A stretch of DNA of 43,365 nucleotides, taken from NCBI GenBank assembly GCA_000752675.2, contig LM994625.1, positions 593,012 to 636,376 of the forward strand. The letters run 5' to 3'. The DNA comes from a bacterium OL-1. Its GTDB lineage: Bacteria; Actinomycetota; Coriobacteriia; Coriobacteriales; Atopobiaceae. The translations under genes and the position numbers were made by a program. A model generated the notes under the pieces. That model was not told the origin of the DNA. It searched no databases and saw nothing but the letters and a program-made list of their open reading frames with translations. Positions 14,739 through 23,385 of this stretch are shown here, one piece after another (position 1 is the stretch's first letter; each line of letters begins with the position of its first letter).

Positions 14739-14902
14739 TGTGTTTGATAGCCTCCTAATTGCACAAAAGAGCAGAGCGGCTTTTCACTCGTGAGCATGAA
14801 ATAGTTTCACAGATAAGCAAGAGGGACACGTCCTGGCACCGCAAACATTGCCATGCTCGATTCGCAGGGCCCAACCCACGGATCGAGAGGCAGGAAAGGA
14901 AG

Positions 14903-16402
14903 ATGCTGGACATGTCCCAGATAGAGAGGATACGCGACATGCTCGCGGATGGCTATACGCCGACGGAGGTGAAGGAGACCCTCGGCGTGTCGTACCCAAC
15001 GATCAGGAAGTATGCTCAGGAAGACGACTTCTCGCCCCAAAGGCCCAAGGCCTCGGAGCGCCCGAGCAAGCTCGATCCCTACAAGGCCCTCATCGGCGAG
15101 ATGCTCGAGGAGGACCGCCACTGCTACCACAAGCAGCGCCACACGGCCAAGCGCGTCTTCGAGAGGCTGCGCGCAGAGCATGGCTTTAGCGGCAGCTACT
15201 CCACGGTGCAGCGCTACATGAAGGAGATTCGCTCTAAGGGGCCGAGGGACGAGTCGGTGAGGCTCGGATGGGACCCGGGCACCATGCAGGTCGACTTCGG
15301 GCAGGCCGACTTCGATTATGCCTTCGGCGGCGGCAGGGCAAGGATGCACTACCTGCCGATGTCCTTCCCGTACTCCAACCACGAGGTGTGCGAGGTCTTC
15401 GCGGACGAGAAGGACGTCTGCGTCTGCCAGGGGCTCAAGGACTGCTTCGAGCACATCGGGGGCGTTCCCCCCGTCATCGTGCTCGACAACGCCACCGAGG
15501 CCGGGAGGAGGTGGCGCGACGTGATCGTGGAGTCCGACCTCTTCCGCCGGCTCAGGCTGCACTACGGCTTCACGGCACGCTTCTGCAACCCGAACGCCGG
15601 CAAGGAGAAGGGAAACGTCGAGGGCAAGGTCGGCTACACCAGGAGGAACTTCTTCGTGCCCGTGCCCGAGGTGGACGACCTTCAGGACTACAACCGAGGG
15701 CTTGCCGAGACGCTTGATGCCCACTCCGAAAAGCGGCTCCACTACGAGAAGGGACTCAGCTGGGCCGACCTCTTCCAGGCTGACAAGGCGCATCTTCTGC
15801 CTCTTCCAAAAAAGCCCTTCGACGTCGTCAAGTGGGCGTCGTGCACGACCGACGGCTACGGAAGGATCACCTTGGACGGCTGCCATCGCTACCTGGCGTC
15901 ACCCTCACTCGCATGTGTTTCGCTCACGGTGGGCGTGCGCGCCTTCACGGTGGAGATAGACGCCCCTGACGGGACGCCGCTAAGGACCTACCGCAGGCGC
16001 TCCGGCAAGCTCTTCACCTCCGACGAGGACCCGCTGGCACTGCTCGAACCGCTTTCGATGAAGACACGCGCCTTCACGCAGTCCAGCGTGTGCGCGCTGT
16101 TCGACGAGGATGTGAGGGACGCCTTCGGCTCCATGGCGACCGACGAGCTGAAAGGCCAGGTCAAGGTGATCTCGAGGCTCGCACAAGCCTATGGCATGGG
16201 GATCACCGCCCAGGCGTTCTCCGAGGCGCTGCGGGCCACCCGCAAGATGCGCCCCGCTGATGTCGAGATGTGCTGCGCCAGGATCCGCGCGCAAGGCACC
16301 GGAACCAAGGCAGCGCGTGAGCTGGGCACCAGGCTCGCCGACTACGACGTCTTCATGCTCAGGGGAGGCGATCGGGATGGCCAGGCTGCCGCAGAAGGTT
16401 GA
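14903..16402 (+). CDS. istA: IS21-family transposase IstA
   Basis: DDE transposase of 499 aa that cuts and joins the IS ends. An N-terminal helix-turn-helix is seen (YTPTEVKETLGVSYPTIRKYA, about 19-39), then the integrase core with Asp in MQVDFGQADF, Asp in VIVLDNATEA, and Glu in GKEKGNVEGKVGY. ATG 14903 is chosen over the longer frame because AGGAAAGGAAG precedes it and the upstream part of the frame covers the end repeats. The 3' end overlaps istB by 26 bases in another frame, the usual coupling in this family. No frameshift or stop interrupts it. Confidence 0.95.
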   Translation: MLDMSQIERIRDMLADGYTPTEVKETLGVSYPTIRKYAQEDDFSPQRPKASERPSKLDPYKALIGEMLEEDRHCYHKQRHTAKRVFERLRAEHGFSGSYSTVQRYMKEIRSKGPRDESVRLGWDPGTMQVDFGQADFDYAFGGGRARMHYLPMSFPYSNHEVCEVFADEKDVCVCQGLKDCFEHIGGVPPVIVLDNATEAGRRWRDVIVESDLFRRLRLHYGFTARFCNPNAGKEKGNVEGKVGYTRRNFFVPVPEVDDLQDYNRGLAETLDAHSEKRLHYEKGLSWADLFQADKAHLLPLPKKPFDVVKWASCTTDGYGRITLDGCHRYLASPSLACVSLTVGVRAFTVEIDAPDGTPLRTYRRRSGKLFTSDEDPLALLEPLSMKTRAFTQSSVCALFDEDVRDAFGSMATDELKGQVKVISRLAQAYGMGITAQAFSEALRATRKMRPADVEMCCARIRAQGTGTKAARELGTRLADYDVFMLRGGDRDGQAAAEG

Positions 16403-17144
16403 TGCTCGCTACGAGAGGCTGAAGCGCGCCGAGCGCGAGGGTGGCTCCATCCTGCTGTCGAAGGCGACGATGCGCCACGTGGCCGAGACGGCCACCGATG
16501 GGCAGTTCGCGTTCTTCGAGGATGCGCTCGCAAGGGAGTACGCGCTCAGGCACCAAAGCCGGATAGCGCGCCTCAAGCGGCAGGCGAACTTTCCCTCGCA
16601 GAAGGGCTTCGATGGCTTCGAATGGTCGGGAATCGTGTTTCCCCGCGGCTTCACGAGGGACGACATGCTCTCGCTTGCCTTCATCGACGCCCACGAGGAC
16701 CTGGTGCTCTTCGGAGGATCAGGCAATGGAAAGACCCATACCGCGATAGCGTTGGGGCTGCTCGCCTGCGGTGAGGGCAGAAAAGTCGCGTTCTGGTCGA
16801 CGGCGGAGCTGGTAAGCGAGCTGAGGCGTGCGAATAAGGAGGGGACGACACAGGACGCGCTCAGGAGGCTCGACAGGTGCGACCTCATCATCCTGGACGA
16901 GTGGGGGTACCTTCCCACCGATCCCGACGGGGCAAGGCTCCTGTTCCGGGTGGTGTCGATGTGCTACGAGCGGATCGCGCTCATTCTCACCACCAACATC
17001 GAATTCTCCAGATGGGGTGAGATCTTTGCCGACGACGACATGGCCAAGGCGATGATGGACCGCATCGTCCACCACGGCAGGCTCATCACCTACGACAGGG
17101 AGTCGTACAGGGTCAAACACGCGCTCATGCGCGGGGAGTTGTAG
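16377..17144 (+). CDS. istB: IS21-family transposition helper ATPase IstB
   Basis: AAA+ ATPase of 255 aa that assists IstA in target capture, DnaC-like. Walker A is GGSGNGKTH (near residues 118-126), Walker B LIILDEWGYLP, and the sensor segment LILTTNIEFSRW is present; the C-terminus DRIVHHGRLITYDRESYR is typical. The start is ATG 16377 within the end of istA, with GGGAGGC upstream; the open frame continues upstream but that part is the istA gene read in a different frame. Length is normal for IstB. Confidence 0.95.
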   Translation: MARLPQKVDARYERLKRAEREGGSILLSKATMRHVAETATDGQFAFFEDALAREYALRHQSRIARLKRQANFPSQKGFDGFEWSGIVFPRGFTRDDMLSLAFIDAHEDLVLFGGSGNGKTHTAIALGLLACGEGRKVAFWSTAELVSELRRANKEGTTQDALRRLDRCDLIILDEWGYLPTDPDGARLLFRVVSMCYERIALILTTNIEFSRWGEIFADDDMAKAMMDRIVHHGRLITYDRESYRVKHALMRGEL

Positions 17145-18060: not shown

Positions 18061-18720
18061 CTACTCCGCGTCGGCCGCCTTCCGTGCGTTGACGTGCGCG
18101 CGAATCGCTCCGGCAACGGCCGGAATCACAGACACCAGGATGATGCCCACAACGACCAGCTCGAAGTGCTCCTGCACGGCAGGAATGCCGCCAAAGAAGT
18201 ACCCAAGCAGCGTGAACAGCGTGGACCACGTGATGCCACCCAGCACGTTGAAGATCACGAAGTTGCGCCAATGCATGCCGCCCATGCCGGCGATGAAGGG
18301 CACAAACGTGCGGATGAACGGGAAGAAGCGGCCCAGGAAGATGGCTAGGTGCCCCCACTTGTCCAGGAACTTCTCGCTCTTCTCCATGCGCTCTGGGGTC
18401 ATGGCCTTGACCTTGCCCGAAGCCACAATCCGCGTCCCAAAGAAGTGCCCAATCATGAAGTTGCACTGGTCGCCCAGGATGGCAGCGACCCAAGCCACGC
18501 CGAGAAGCGCAAAGATGTTGAACCCGCCGCCCTGCGCAAAGAACCCGGACGCAAACAGCAGCGAGTCACCCGGTAGGAACGGGAAGAACACGACACCCGT
18601 CTCGACAAAGATGATGAGAAACACGAAGCCGTACGCGGTGAGAGGGCCGGCGGCGATCCAGCTCGCAATGGCGGCACGCGGGTCGCGAAGCAGGTTGGCA
18701 ATGAAGTCAACGAATCCCAT
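18061..18720 (-). CDS. DedA-family membrane protein
   Basis: DedA/SNARE-associated (VTT) family membrane protein, 219 aa. Members are thought to move lipids or lipid carriers such as undecaprenyl phosphate. Seen: hydrophobic segments throughout, the re-entrant motif FFPFLPGDSLLFASGFFA, and the conserved amphipathic/second re-entrant segment GRFFPFIRTFVPFIAGMGGM with its Arg and Pro residues. ATG 18720 is chosen (GGGAG 7 bases upstream); a TTG two codons earlier is too close to that site. It follows the SRP RNA terminator on the same strand. Confidence 0.92.
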   Translation of the reverse strand: MGFVDFIANLLRDPRAAIASWIAAGPLTAYGFVFLIIFVETGVVFFPFLPGDSLLFASGFFAQGGGFNIFALLGVAWVAAILGDQCNFMIGHFFGTRIVASGKVKAMTPERMEKSEKFLDKWGHLAIFLGRFFPFIRTFVPFIAGMGGMHWRNFVIFNVLGGITWSTLFTLLGYFFGGIPAVQEHFELVVVGIILVSVIPAVAGAIRAHVNARKAADAE

Positions 18721-18771
18721 AGACAAACTCCCTGTTCAGGCAAAGTAGGCCAGGCACGACAATCGGTCTAC

Positions 18772-18937: not shown

Positions 18938-19160
18938 CCAAAGAAGGCGCCGCACTACTCTCGCGCCACGAAAACGCGACAAAGCGAGGGGGCGAGAATG
19001 TTCCCGAATCACCCATCGCCGCCAGCCATCGCCACGCTTCTATTGACCGAGTAATAGCTTTGCTTTGGGCGTTAATTCAAGAAGCGGGCGTTTGTCACAG
19101 CTGCTAGAGGCAGGCACTCGGTTTACAGTTGACATGTCTATTACCGAGAGGGGCGAGAAC

Positions 19161-19880
19161 GTGCTCAAGTATCAAATCGTCATCGATGACCTGCGTCAGG
19201 CAATAAAAAACGGGACGTATCCCGCCTATTCTCAGCTTCCCTCGGTAAGCAAGCTGTGCGAGCAGTACGACGTGAGCAAGATCACCATCAACAAGGCGCT
19301 TGGCGAGCTCGAGGCGCAAGGGCTCATCTCGCGCAGGCGCGGGTCTGGCTCGTTCGTGAAGAAGGTCGAGACCTCGTCCGCGGCGCCCGACACCAACGAC
19401 ATCTCTGGCCAGATGACGGGCTTCCTCGCCGAGCACCAGGCGCGCGGCGAATCCGTGAGGACCGACGTCTATGACTTCTCGGTTGTGCGCCCGCCCCACC
19501 ACGTTGCCGAGGCGCTCGACGTGGATGACGATTCGTTTACCTACCACGTGTGCCGTGTGAGGTGCGCAAACGAGAAGCCCCGCGTTATCGAGTACACCTA
19601 TATGCCCATCGACGTGGTGACGGACCTCAAACTCAAGAACGCACAGACCTCGATCTATTCGTTTATCGAGAAGGACCTTGGTCTCAAGATCGCCAGCGCA
19701 CACCGCATCATTCGTGCCGTCATGCCCTCGGCAGAGGAGCGCAAGCGGCTCAACGCCCCCGAGGGCGAGCCGCTGCTCGAGGTCGAGCAGGTAGGATACC
19801 TCGATGACGGCCGGCCGTTCGAGTATTCGGTCTCGCGGCACGTCCACGACTACGAGTTCCACTCGATCTCGACGAAGTAA
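19161..19880 (+). CDS. GntR-family transcriptional regulator (HutC/UTRA subfamily)
   Basis: DNA-binding regulator of 239 aa. An N-terminal winged helix (VLKYQIVIDDLRQAIKNG ... LPSVSKLCEQYDVSKITINKAL ... GLISRRRGSGSFV) is followed by a UTRA ligand-binding domain (about 85-239; VIEYTYMPIDVVTDL, LEVEQVGYLDDGRPFEYSVSRHV). GTG 19161 is preferred because GAGAGGGGCGAG lies just upstream and this start matches the family; an ATG at 19134 would add nine residues. UTRA members usually sense sugar phosphates or amino-acid metabolites, but no obvious target operon adjoins it. A terminator follows. Confidence 0.9.
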   Translation: MLKYQIVIDDLRQAIKNGTYPAYSQLPSVSKLCEQYDVSKITINKALGELEAQGLISRRRGSGSFVKKVETSSAAPDTNDISGQMTGFLAEHQARGESVRTDVYDFSVVRPPHHVAEALDVDDDSFTYHVCRVRCANEKPRVIEYTYMPIDVVTDLKLKNAQTSIYSFIEKDLGLKIASAHRIIRAVMPSAEERKRLNAPEGEPLLEVEQVGYLDDGRPFEYSVSRHVHDYEFHSISTK

Positions 19881-20223: not shown

Positions 20224-20817
20224 ATGGCTAAGAAGCCCAGCGCAAAGGCTCGCAAGGCAAACGAGGAAGCCGTTCGCCAGTCAAAGCTAGACGAGAAGTA
20301 CGGCAAGCCGCTCTTCTCTCTCACCTATGATATGAACGAGTACGAGCTGGCTCGCGCAGCCAACCTCTATGGCCCCGACCGCATGAAGGACATCTTCAAC
20401 GGTGCCGCGATTCTCTCGCTTGCCCTGCTCATCCTGGTTCTGGTTACCATGAGCGAGAACATCGTGCTTACCATGGCCCTGCTGGTCATTGCCGTTATCA
20501 CGTCCTCCATCACCACAAGCTGGAGCCGCTTTGCAACCTTCCTTGCACGCAAGAGCACGCTGGGCCTTATGGGCGAGGACAACCGTCGCCACATTGTGGT
20601 GACCGAGGACAAGGTGGTAGAGGAAGGGCCCGACGACCGCGTGGTCGAGTACCCTCTCTCCGAGCTTAAGCACTCCCGCTCGAGCAACGAGGCAACCGTT
20701 GTCGACTTTGGCAACAAGCGCTGCGTCTACATTCCGCGCGCACCCATGAGCGAGGGCCGCTACCAGGCGCTTGTTCGCTTCCTTCTCGACCACGAGCCCA
20801 AGAAGGGCAAGCGCTAG
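20224..20817 (+). CDS. Two-helix membrane protein, YcxB-like C-terminal domain
   Basis: 197 aa. A Lys-rich cytoplasmic N-terminus, then FSLTYDMNEYELARA, two closely spaced membrane helices (about 60-98), and a soluble C-terminal domain (RHIVVTEDKVVEEGPDDRVVEYPLSELKH ... VVDFGNKRCVYIPRAPMSEGRYQALVRFL). That pattern matches the YcxB-like domain. Start ATG 20224 after a perfect AAGGAGG. Function of the family is not established. It stands alone, 108 bases ahead of the AmmeMemoRadiSam genes on the same strand. Confidence 0.7.
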   Translation: MAKKPSAKARKANEEAVRQSKLDEKYGKPLFSLTYDMNEYELARAANLYGPDRMKDIFNGAAILSLALLILVLVTMSENIVLTMALLVIAVITSSITTSWSRFATFLARKSTLGLMGEDNRRHIVVTEDKVVEEGPDDRVVEYPLSELKHSRSSNEATVVDFGNKRCVYIPRAPMSEGRYQALVRFLLDHEPKKGKR

Positions 20818-20925
20818 GAAGCGCCTCCACGCCTTTGGCGGCACTGGGCATCCAGATGCCGAAACTGGTGAGCGCCAGCCGCCACAACGGGTATTGACTC
20901 TGGTAGCGACCAAGGAGGTCCTGCC

Positions 20926-22329
20926 ATGAGCATTGTTGCCGCATTCGCCGTACCGCACCCACCGCTCATCATTCCGGGGGTGGGATCTGGCAAGGAGAAG
21001 ATTTCTGCCACCATCGCCGCGTATGACGAGGTGGGGCGCTGCATAGCCGAGCTTGCGCCAGACACGGTGGTCATCTCGAGCCCGCATGCCATCATGTATG
21101 CGGACTACATCCACATCTCCCCCGGACGTGGGGCGCAGGGTGGCTTCTCGATGTTTGGCGCGCCGCAGGCCCGCTACGAGGCGGTCTATGACCAGGAGTT
21201 TGTTCGCGCCCTGGCGCACGCCTGCAAGCAGGAGGGTCTCTCGGCTGGCTGCGAGGGCGAGAGGGACCCAACCCTCGACCACGGCACCATGATTCCGCTC
21301 CACTTCATCCAGCGCCACACCAAGGACTTCCAGGTGGTGCGCATGGGCATCTCGGGCCTCTCGCCAGCAGACCACTACCGTATGGGCATGCTGGTACAGC
21401 GCGTGGCCCGTGAGCTTGGCAGGCGCGTGGTCTACGTGGCCTCCGGCGACCTCTCGCACAAGCTGCTGGCGAGCGGCCCGTACGGCTTTGCGCCAGAAGG
21501 CCCGCAGTTTGACGAGAAGGTCACGCAGGCCTTCTCGACCGGCAATCTGCTGCTCCTGCTCACTATGGACCGCGGCTTTGCCGAGCGCGCAGCCGAGTGC
21601 GGTTTGCGCAGCTTCCAGATAATGGCGGGCGCGCTTGACCGCACCGCCATCAGGCCTGAGCTTCTCTCCTACGAGGGACCCTTTGGCGTGGGCTACGGGG
21701 TTGCTGCATTTACGCCTGTGGGCGAGGAGGGCGCAGATGAGAGCCGCGCGCTTCTCGAGCAATACGAGGCCTTCCACAGGGCAGACCTGGCCCGTCGCAA
21801 GGCAGCGGAGGACCCCTACGTCTCGCTGGCTCGTCTCTCGCTCGAGACCTACGTGCGCGAGCGTCGTCGCATCACGCCAGACGAGAAGCCCGACCTGCCT
21901 GCTGAGCTGCTCTCTGCCCGAGCAGGTGCGTTTGTCTCGCTCAAGAAGGACGGCGAGCTGCGCGGGTGCATTGGTACCATCGCACCGGTGCAGGACAACC
22001 TTGCCGAGGAGATCTGCGCGAACGCCATCTCGGCCGGGCGGCATGATCCACGCTTCCCGCCGGTCACGGCAGGCGAGCTAGATGAGCTTGTGTACGACGT
22101 AGACGTGCTGAGCGCGCCAGAGCCCGTGGAGTCCGCAGACCAGCTTGACCCCAAGCGCTACGGCGTCATCGTAAGCACAGCAGACGGCCGGCGCGGACTT
22201 CTCCTGCCAGACCTCGACGGCGTGGACACGGTATCTGAGCAGCTGCGCATTGCTGCCGGCAAGGGGCACATAGACCTCAGGCGCGACGATTGCACGCTTG
22301 AGCGCTTCGAGGTTGTGAGGCACACGTGA
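20926..22329 (+). CDS. AmmeMemoRadiSam proteins B and A fused (Memo-like + AMMECR1)
   Basis: 467-aa fusion. Residues 1 to about 275 match the Memo/class III extradiol dioxygenase-like (LigB) fold: AVPHPPLIIPGVG with His11, SPHAIMYADY with His54, LDHGTMIPLHF and ASGDLSHKL, the His set of that family. Residues about 300-467 match AMMECR1: YVSLARLSLETYV, GAFVSLKKDGELRGCIGT with the LRGCIG motif, DPRFPPVTAGEL and EVYDVDVL-like LVYDVDVLS. ATG 20926 after AAGGAGGT. It overlaps the radical SAM gene by four bases (GTGA). These three modules recur together in prokaryotes; the reaction is not firmly known. Confidence 0.9.
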   Translation: MSIVAAFAVPHPPLIIPGVGSGKEKISATIAAYDEVGRCIAELAPDTVVISSPHAIMYADYIHISPGRGAQGGFSMFGAPQARYEAVYDQEFVRALAHACKQEGLSAGCEGERDPTLDHGTMIPLHFIQRHTKDFQVVRMGISGLSPADHYRMGMLVQRVARELGRRVVYVASGDLSHKLLASGPYGFAPEGPQFDEKVTQAFSTGNLLLLLTMDRGFAERAAECGLRSFQIMAGALDRTAIRPELLSYEGPFGVGYGVAAFTPVGEEGADESRALLEQYEAFHRADLARRKAAEDPYVSLARLSLETYVRERRRITPDEKPDLPAELLSARAGAFVSLKKDGELRGCIGTIAPVQDNLAEEICANAISAGRHDPRFPPVTAGELDELVYDVDVLSAPEPVESADQLDPKRYGVIVSTADGRRGLLLPDLDGVDTVSEQLRIAAGKGHIDLRRDDCTLERFEVVRHT

Positions 22330-23171
22330 GCCGCAGCGCAACATGCGATGTCTGCTGGCGCCACTGCGTGGTTCCGGAAGGCAGCACGGGCTTCTGCCGT
22401 GCGCGCACCTGCCAGGACGGGGACATGGTGCCGGGCAACTACGGCCGGCTCACCTCTGTGGCGATTGACCCTGTTGAGAAGAAACCGCTGGCAGAGTGGC
22501 ATCCCGGCGCGCACGTGCTCTCGGTGGGGAGCTACGGGTGCAACATGCGCTGCCCCTTCTGCCAGAACTTCGAGATATCGCAGGAGGGCGAGAACGGCGT
22601 CCCCTGGCGCGAGGTCTTACCTCAGGAGCTGGTTGACCTAGCGCTTGAGTGCGCCGAGCGCGACCCAGGCGTCATAGGCATTGCGCACACCTATAACGAG
22701 CCCCTGGTGGGCTGGGAGTACGTGCACGACTGCTCGGTGCTGGCGCACAAGGCTGGCCTTGCCAACGTGCTGGTGTCCAACGGCTGTGCCAGTGCCCACG
22801 TGATCGACGCGCTGGCTCCGCTTGTGGATGCGGCGAACATCGACCTCAAGTGCTTCTCGGCAGAGGGCTACCGCGAGCTGGGCGGCAGCTTTGAGGACGT
22901 GCGGCGCACCATTGAAGCGCTAGGGACGAGCGGCACGTGCCACCTTGAGGTGACCACGCTTGTGGTGCCTGGGGTTAGCGACTCCGAGGCCGTCATGCGC
23001 CAGGAGGCGGCATGGCTCGCCAGCGTGAACGAGAAGATCGTGCTGCACGTCACGCGCTTCTTCCCACGCTGGCACATGGCCAATGCGCAGCCCACGCCGG
23101 TGGCAACCGTAATGCGCATGGCAAACGTGGCACGAGAGTACCTCTCGCGCGTCCACGTGGGGAACTGCTAG
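22326..23171 (+). CDS. AmmeMemoRadiSam system radical SAM enzyme, short C-terminus
   Basis: 281 aa, GTG start overlapping the upstream stop. The radical SAM cluster CNMRCPFC (Cys72, Cys76, Cys79) binds the 4Fe-4S cluster and SAM. An N-terminal Cys set (Cys7, Cys10, Cys14, Cys24) could bind a further metal, as in the pyruvate formate-lyase activating-like group. HTYNEPLVGWEYV and NIDLKCFSAEGYREL are typical. From memory, family members are about 330 aa and end in a YCPxCG-type motif; this one stops at VHVGNC, so that second motif is absent. Likely acts with the fused Memo-AMMECR1 partner; substrate unknown. Confidence 0.9.
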   Translation: MSRSATCDVCWRHCVVPEGSTGFCRARTCQDGDMVPGNYGRLTSVAIDPVEKKPLAEWHPGAHVLSVGSYGCNMRCPFCQNFEISQEGENGVPWREVLPQELVDLALECAERDPGVIGIAHTYNEPLVGWEYVHDCSVLAHKAGLANVLVSNGCASAHVIDALAPLVDAANIDLKCFSAEGYRELGGSFEDVRRTIEALGTSGTCHLEVTTLVVPGVSDSEAVMRQEAAWLASVNEKIVLHVTRFFPRWHMANAQPTPVATVMRMANVAREYLSRVHVGNC

Positions 23172-23215
23172 AGCGAGAGGGGCCACGCAGCGCGCCGCGG
23201 CTGCGGAAACACGCG

Positions 23216-23385
23216 CTCGAGCGAGAAAACGACGCCCGAAGGGCAATCCCGTACACGATTGGCACAAAAAGAGCCTCTCGGGCGCAAAAATGACGCCCGA
23301 GGGGCCACTCTATACGTAATTCCTGCTAGAACGATCCTTCGGGCGTCAGATTGACGCCCGAAGCGGAGTTTTGGTCGCGGCCCGC
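23216..23385. repeat. intergenic hairpin repeat array, locus B (three units)
   Basis: Three phased hairpins. 23216-23241: CTCGAGCG..CGCCCGAA. 23274-23304: CCTCTCGGGCG / CGCCCGAGGGG, 9-base loop. 23337-23363: perfect 11-bp CTTCGGGCGTC / GACGCCCGAAG, 5-base loop. Start offsets are 58 and 63. Linkers carry GTAC- or TACGTA-type motifs. Lies between the convergent stops of the radical SAM gene and pgi, so hairpins could also end transcription, but no T-run follows. Confidence 0.75.

Follow-up and report, generated by a model that had tools for sequence, protein, structure and literature searches.

The AmmeMemoRadiSam system, described by the models TIGR04335 (protein A), TIGR04336 (protein B) and TIGR04337 (radical SAM enzyme), is a name in tables in the open-access papers that we consulted, and what AMMECR1 and Memo do biochemically has long been a gap in knowledge. 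The Memo-AMMECR1 systems of Burroughs and colleagues (2019) are cited as recently described, with a distinctive radical SAM domain, in an eLife paper (PMC7159879), and archaeal AMMECR1 is placed among the top-priority candidates for experiment in a table of a 2019 paper (PMC6393860). In this study we analysed a stretch of 43,365 nucleotides from bacterium OL-1 (GenBank assembly GCA_000752675.2, contig LM994625.1, positions 593,012 to 636,376 of the forward strand; the whole stretch is called the window below), in which a fused gene with a LigB-type and an AMMECR1 domain overlaps a radical SAM gene. We find that the window holds a compact member of the known but unsolved AmmeMemoRadiSam system and that its fusion is ordinary; the interest of the locus rests on comparative evidence from outside the window. 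That the AMMECR1, LigB and radical SAM modules form one working unit is well supported.

The fused gene and its radical SAM neighbour

A first-pass annotation, made from the letters of this DNA, had placed all AmmeMemoRadiSam modules in two overlapping genes, and its coordinates, its AMMECR1 and radical SAM assignments and the overlap hold. The features are the following (aa, amino acids):

20912..20918, plus strand: Shine-Dalgarno-like AAGGAGG, read directly, 7 bases 5' of the ATG
20926..22329, plus strand: fused LigB-type/AMMECR1 protein, 467 aa (profiles and AlphaFold2 model)
20926..21729, plus strand: LigB-type domain, residues 1-268 (PF02900 at residues 6-259, conservation, fold)
21820..22317, plus strand: AMMECR1 domain, residues 299-464 (PF01871, TIGR04335, conservation, fold)
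22326..23171, plus strand: radical SAM enzyme, 281 aa, GTG start (TIGR04337, conservation, model)

The two genes share four bases (GTGA), the GTG start at 22326 being set into the TGA stop of the fused gene. The same 4-base overlap is found in 16 of 24 named Actinomycetota loci with both genes, a count that leaves out L042, L047 and L062, where the radical SAM gene was not seen (L042 is cut by a contig end). The C-terminal half of the fused protein matches PF01871 (AMMECR1) with 144.5 bits and is over the cut-off of TIGR04335 (AmmeMemoSam_A; 118.6 bits against 99). For the radical SAM enzyme TIGR04337 gives 219 bits with the protein and 222.2 bits in a six-frame search of the genome, against a cut-off of 220, and PF04055 (radical SAM) gives 66.4 bits. 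Over the whole genome there is a single match above cut-off for AMMECR1 and a single one for TIGR04337. The N-terminal half had been called a Memo domain, and of this call the superfamily fold stands and the family does not: PF02900 (LigB) matches with 137.5 bits against a cut-off of 26.3, the Memo family PF01875 has no match anywhere in the genome at E<=0.001, and TIGR04336 (AmmeMemoSam_B) is a near miss (25.9 bits against 26), with the LigB-type domain in the place of protein B. This domain is of LigB type, a cousin of Memo and not Memo proper. Because a LigB-type domain can stand where Memo is expected, a profile search for protein B can overlook the system. With counterparts in T. scatoligenes and T. 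montrealensis that are 96% identical to the fused protein, the source is a Tractidigestivibacter-like member of the Atopobiaceae.

The AlphaFold2 model of the fused protein, built from 30 aligned sequences, has a pLDDT of 93.0 and a pTM of 0.88. The modelled LigB half is nearest, among solved folds, to TK2203 (5hee; Z 31.9, 254 residues aligned), followed by the aminophenol dioxygenases 7txy and 3vsh (Z 28.2 and 27.4), LigAB (1bou; Z 24.3) and MEMO1 (3bcz; Z 19.2), and the AMMECR1 half resembles the archaeal AMMECR1 protein PH0010 (1vaj; Z 21.6). The metal and catalytic positions of LigB correspond to His11, His54, His178, Asp175, Glu224 and Cys225 of the window protein, whose roles we take, by analogy, to be those of LigB and Memo. 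Among the 71 genomes with AMMECR1-linked LigB, tallied where readable, His178 is kept in 70 of 70, Glu224 in 69 of 70, Asp175 and His11 in 69 of 69 each, His54 in 63 of 69 and Cys225 in 64 of 70. All 19 Memo-type sequences have Met-Cys-Gly in the columns of Glu224-Cys225-Gly226, and by this alignment the window domain therefore has a dioxygenase-type Glu together with a Memo-type Cys. In the AMMECR1 half Cys348, Asp374, Arg376 and Lys446 are invariant (117 of 117 sequences, with both partner types). The LigB half is probably an active metalloenzyme, in which the conserved residues would bind the metal.

Such a site might belong to an ordinary extradiol ring-cleaving dioxygenase, and the LigB fold and the complete 2-His/1-Glu set of the window protein would fit this. 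However, in most sequences the Glu is followed by the Memo-type Cys-Gly, the sampled lineages lacking AMMECR1 have lost the site (see below), and AMMECR1, the constant partner, is listed as an anaerobe marker: a table of that study gives PF01871 among the anaerobic markers with values of 3.38 and 50.66, which we read as percentages of aerobes and anaerobes (PMC13386939). Based on this listing the LigB site is probably O2-independent. On these three grounds we rejected a ring-cleaving dioxygenase as the principal explanation, and we consider it hardly credible.

The radical SAM enzyme carries its CX3CX2C motif at Cys72/76/79, which is kept in 67 of 67 sequences, as are the N-terminal Cys7, Cys10 and Cys24; Cys14 is kept in 65. 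Its model (pLDDT 94.4) has pyruvate formate-lyase activating enzyme as the best PDB match. The family itself falls into two length classes, with matches ending at about position 290 of the model, as in the window, or at about 330-349. The structural match could mean that the enzyme activates or modifies a protein, as pyruvate formate-lyase activases do, and that its target is the fused protein, for example at the conserved cysteines. These activating enzymes are the closest solved structures, the two genes overlap, and Cys348 is found in 117 of 117 sequences. Yet the match is weak evidence, because many radical SAM enzymes have that fold; moreover Cys225 is replaced by Asp in six of the 70 readable genomes, and AMMECR1 is without an adjoining radical SAM gene in 83 of 104 loci. 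We regard an activase acting on the fused protein as improbable.

Co-occurrence and gene architecture across Actinomycetota

In an even phylum sample of 296 Actinomycetota genomes, AMMECR1 was found in 105 and the radical SAM gene in 111. Both were present in 95 genomes, AMMECR1 alone in 10, the radical SAM gene alone in 16 and neither in 175 (Fisher p 4e-48, the kinship of the genomes being ignored). This is the phylogenetic check that the first-pass annotation had proposed, and its view that the modules act together is borne out by the co-occurrence, by repeated change between fused and split genes and by the joint absence of AMMECR1, the radical SAM gene and the LigB catalytic residues from the same lineages.

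The AMMECR1 loci of 104 of the 105 genomes were examined (G198 was left out; two loci are cut by a contig end), and the counts of fused, adjacent and mia-linked genes given here come from mechanically called open reading frames (ORFs) and home-made profiles. A LigB partner is fused to AMMECR1 in 38 loci and adjacent in 33, a Memo partner is fused in eight and adjacent in 20, three loci are without a partner and two lie at a contig edge. LigB or Memo is thus fused to or adjoins AMMECR1 in 99 of 104 loci (46 fused, 53 adjacent), and with 46 of 104 loci fused we rejected the idea of an unusual fusion. A tree of 117 AMMECR1 domains requires at least nine changes between the fused and the split state, two of partner type and 10 of gene context. 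From these changes and the locus counts it follows that fusion is common, has been gained or lost repeatedly and occurs with Memo proper as well.

A fixed stoichiometry of the modules, as had been proposed for the window, holds for LigB and AMMECR1 because the two are fused; for the radical SAM enzyme the gene overlap only suggests it, and across the phylum this gene adjoins AMMECR1 in 21 of 104 loci and was not found there in 83, some loci being short. This separation, together with the case of AMMECR1 alone in Haloferax volcanii, is what one might expect if the two genes of the window had independent functions on one transcript. However, co-occurrence across whole genomes in the absence of linkage is the stronger sign of a shared function, and independent functions are very unlikely in our judgement. 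The three modules very probably work in one pathway.

As a separate observation, nine of the 16 genomes with a radical SAM gene and no AMMECR1 have Memo, and several of the 16 score more than 600 bits on TIGR04337; these genomes may hold a variant system lacking AMMECR1. Among the neighbours of 13 unlinked radical SAM genes no family was common to more than three loci, a comparison from which L177 was left out (no radical SAM ORF was selected there, although another search had located one).

The mia neighbourhood and a possible substrate

When the neighbours of AMMECR1 in an initial set of 104 loci were clustered, 24 loci showed a MiaB family and 26 a MiaA family, with medians of 41 and 75 bases between these genes and the AMMECR1 ORF, and representatives of these families exceed the curated MiaA and MiaB cut-offs. 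In the phylum sample 57 of 104 loci have miaB and/or miaA beside AMMECR1, with miaB preceding it and miaA following; the mia counts are lower bounds, since some loci comprise just 2-4 kb. By class, the mia link is found in 29 of 33 loci with adjacent LigB and 22 of 38 with fused LigB, in three of 20 with adjacent and none of eight with fused Memo, in all three loci without a partner and in neither of the two at a contig edge. None of the 104 loci has both a mia gene and the radical SAM gene beside AMMECR1, and 54 of the 57 mia-linked genomes have a radical SAM gene elsewhere (the exceptions are G044, G116 and G202). In the three genomes of family f23 it is Memo, not LigB, that lies between miaB and miaA (its identity was verified on one of the three), and the f23 AMMECR1 falls in an otherwise LigB-partnered clade. 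Taken together these two observations suggest that the partner was exchanged in place at the mia site.

We also examined 60 mia loci without adjoining AMMECR1, nine from genomes that have AMMECR1 elsewhere and 51 from AMMECR1-less genomes, the latter hand-picked from genomes with known miaA coordinates (two are cut by a contig end). LigB was found at mia in none of the nine, the window's own genome included. A LigB-like gene adjoins miaA in 16 of the 51, in the direction of miaB; for L200, one of the 16, the examined stretch showed no miaB. These genes were detected at 31-82 bits with profiles made from AMMECR1-linked LigB; of two that were compared with Pfam, one matched no family and one had a LigB match under the cut-off. 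None of the 16 retains His178 or Glu224; where aligned, His11, His54 and Cys225 survive in one family, whereas most of the others are without them. None of the 16 genomes is among those with the radical SAM gene. AMMECR1, the radical SAM enzyme and the catalytic residues of LigB are hence jointly missing from these genomes. In M. tuberculosis, Rv2728c is presumably a LigB-like gene between miaB and miaA.

The placement at mia points to prenylated adenosine 37 of tRNA (A37) or to the prenyl donor. In our proposal the products of the window's two genes form a single anaerobic enzyme system. Its radical SAM enzyme would start the reaction by making a substrate radical, and the fused LigB-AMMECR1 protein would handle the same intermediate: its LigB half, with a full 2-His/1-Glu site and an adjacent Memo-type Cys, might perform chemistry without O2, and its AMMECR1 half might provide a second pocket built on Cys348, Asp374, Arg376 and Lys446. 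The order of these steps is what we would infer. The substrate is quite possibly linked to the MiaA/MiaB products, that is prenylated A37, or to their prenyl donor. Taken as a whole, an anaerobic radical SAM system with an A37- or prenyl-linked substrate is our best explanation, and we put it forward tentatively. A bolder version would make AmmeMemoRadiSam an O2-independent modification of tRNA position 37 (or of prenyl-adenosine) in which, after prenylation by MiaA and methylthiolation by MiaB, the radical SAM enzyme together with LigB/Memo-AMMECR1 oxidises or rearranges the prenyl group, with lineages lacking AMMECR1 and the radical SAM enzyme retaining at most a catalytically dead LigB at mia. 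We consider this version rather unlikely; if it were true, AMMECR1 and MEMO1, which are human disease proteins, would stand for ancestral RNA or isoprenoid enzymology. In practical terms, the gene-order evidence makes the link to A37 or a prenyl group concretely testable, and thanks to the fusion two of the three parts can conveniently be purified as a single chain.

A link to mia may already have been described, since the abstract of Burroughs and colleagues (2019) reportedly ties Memo to nucleotide-base and isoprenoid modification. Within the open-access literature, to which our search extended and outside which the subscription journals lie, nothing was found that joins AMMECR1 with MiaA or with isoprenoid.

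Several observations weigh against a prenyl-linked system of three parts. One concerns the parts themselves: 26 of the 296 genomes have either AMMECR1 or the radical SAM gene and not both, Haloferax volcanii matches AMMECR1 and neither Memo nor radical SAM, and Thermus composti, of the three parts, matches Memo alone. The mia neighbourhood was seen within Actinomycetota only; mia neighbours were found in none of 18 loci of other or unnamed phyla, many of which have short flanks. In the window's own genome the mia locus is miaB-miaA, overlapping directly with nothing between. The archaeal control genomes of M. jannaschii, S. acidocaldarius and M. acetivorans hold all three parts (Memo, AMMECR1, radical SAM enzyme) and no miaA, so prenylated A37 cannot be the substrate everywhere; the control genome of Thermotoga maritima has the three parts together with miaA. 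Co-occurrence with miaA tells little, because this gene is near-universal (258 of 296 sampled genomes; 102 of the 105 AMMECR1 genomes, read by eye). The metal site of LigB is not invariant either, since in the proteins of six genomes (f24, f41, f46) His54 is replaced by Pro or Ser and Cys225 by Asp, and in one of these Gln also takes the place of Glu224; the altered-site loci are L135, L137, L145, L147, L160 and L027. Lastly, a quick tree, whose branches are long, puts all 16 degenerate LigB genes on the same side of one branch, and their decay may therefore be a single event and not 16.

These points lead to the alternative that the three modules are one system whose substrate is unrelated to tRNA A37, the mia site being an inherited operon position of one phylum and the real substrate a metabolite or cofactor shared among anaerobic bacteria and archaea. 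It would account for the archaeal controls that have all three parts without miaA, for the lack of mia in 16 loci of the window's order and in the 18 of other or unnamed phyla, and for the 13 unlinked radical SAM genes with no neighbour family in more than three loci. The apparent partner swap and the LigB genes without catalytic residues at mia, however, suggest more than a passive position. An unrelated substrate is a real possibility, short of being probable.

Lineage, surroundings and comparison with known systems

In the window's order the 16 sampled AMMECR1 genomes all carry the LigB fusion at a site other than mia; the radical SAM gene is next door in 14 of them, elsewhere in G174 and not found in G260. 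On the tree a set of 13 rows unites the window AMMECR1 with the order's families f1 and f3 and with a sequence from an Anaerovibrio metagenome-assembled genome (Bacillota), and this Anaerovibrio genome has the same operon of fused gene and radical SAM gene. The members of f2, another family of the order, are placed elsewhere on the tree (one next to a Lachnospiraceae sequence), and family f4 of the same class, with its fused gene at mia, stands apart from the window AMMECR1. This pattern suggests that the compact operon has been exchanged between gut-type anaerobes.

The gene directly upstream (20224-20817) had been described as a YcxB-like membrane protein, a name that we drop: it matches no Pfam family at E<=0.001, and the two names that appear at E<=1 both fall under their cut-offs and neither is YcxB. 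The gene recurs strongly in the six nearest loci (L038-L043) and weakly in L076 and L083, and we rejected it as a part of the system because among the compared loci it recurs only in near relatives. Farther upstream lie a GntR/UTRA regulator (19065-19880; the nearest model is a trehalose operon repressor, well under its cut-off), a DedA/VTT-domain membrane protein (18061-18726, minus strand) and two adjacent ORFs (14759-17144) that by eye resemble an IS21-type transposase and its ATP-binding helper. Just 3' of the radical SAM gene there are three imperfect copies of a 38-base hairpin-forming repeat (23207-23366), two of them 76% and 63% identical to the first, at an exact spacing of 61 bases. 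The repeat core has 14 forward and nine reverse matches in the genome with at most one mismatch, and a backward control has none; some of the other sites are also 60-61 bases apart. The repeat looks like a dispersed REP-type element. A second LigB-family gene of the same genome (G000:C2:745067-745768; L033, 1495-2406, minus strand) has no AMMECR1 in its ORF and is of another type, by eye like 4,5-DOPA-dioxygenase/YgiD.

Compared with known proteins, the LigB half shares with the LigB or class III extradiol dioxygenases (PF02900; 2-aminophenol 1,6-dioxygenase, LigAB) the fold and the positions of the His/His/Glu set and of the catalytic His, and differs from them in the Cys-Gly by the Glu (in most sequences), the fusion to AMMECR1 and the anaerobic setting. 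TK2203, an archaeal protein of LigB fold and the nearest in structure, is 19% identical and, unlike the window protein, not fused. With Memo/MEMO1 (PF01875, 3bcz) the window protein has in common the superfamily fold, the Cys-Gly at the C-terminal ligand position and the AMMECR1 partner, whereas it does not match PF01875 and its Glu224 corresponds to Met in the 19 Memo-type sequences; the Memo histidines occupy other alignment columns than those of the window LigB, although they lie close by and the difference may be an alignment shift. The closest system as such is AmmeMemoRadiSam, whose protein A and radical SAM enzyme have their counterparts here in two overlapping genes. In contrast to that system, the window's protein B is of LigB type and fused to A, and its radical SAM enzyme is a short form of 281 aa against a model of 349 positions.

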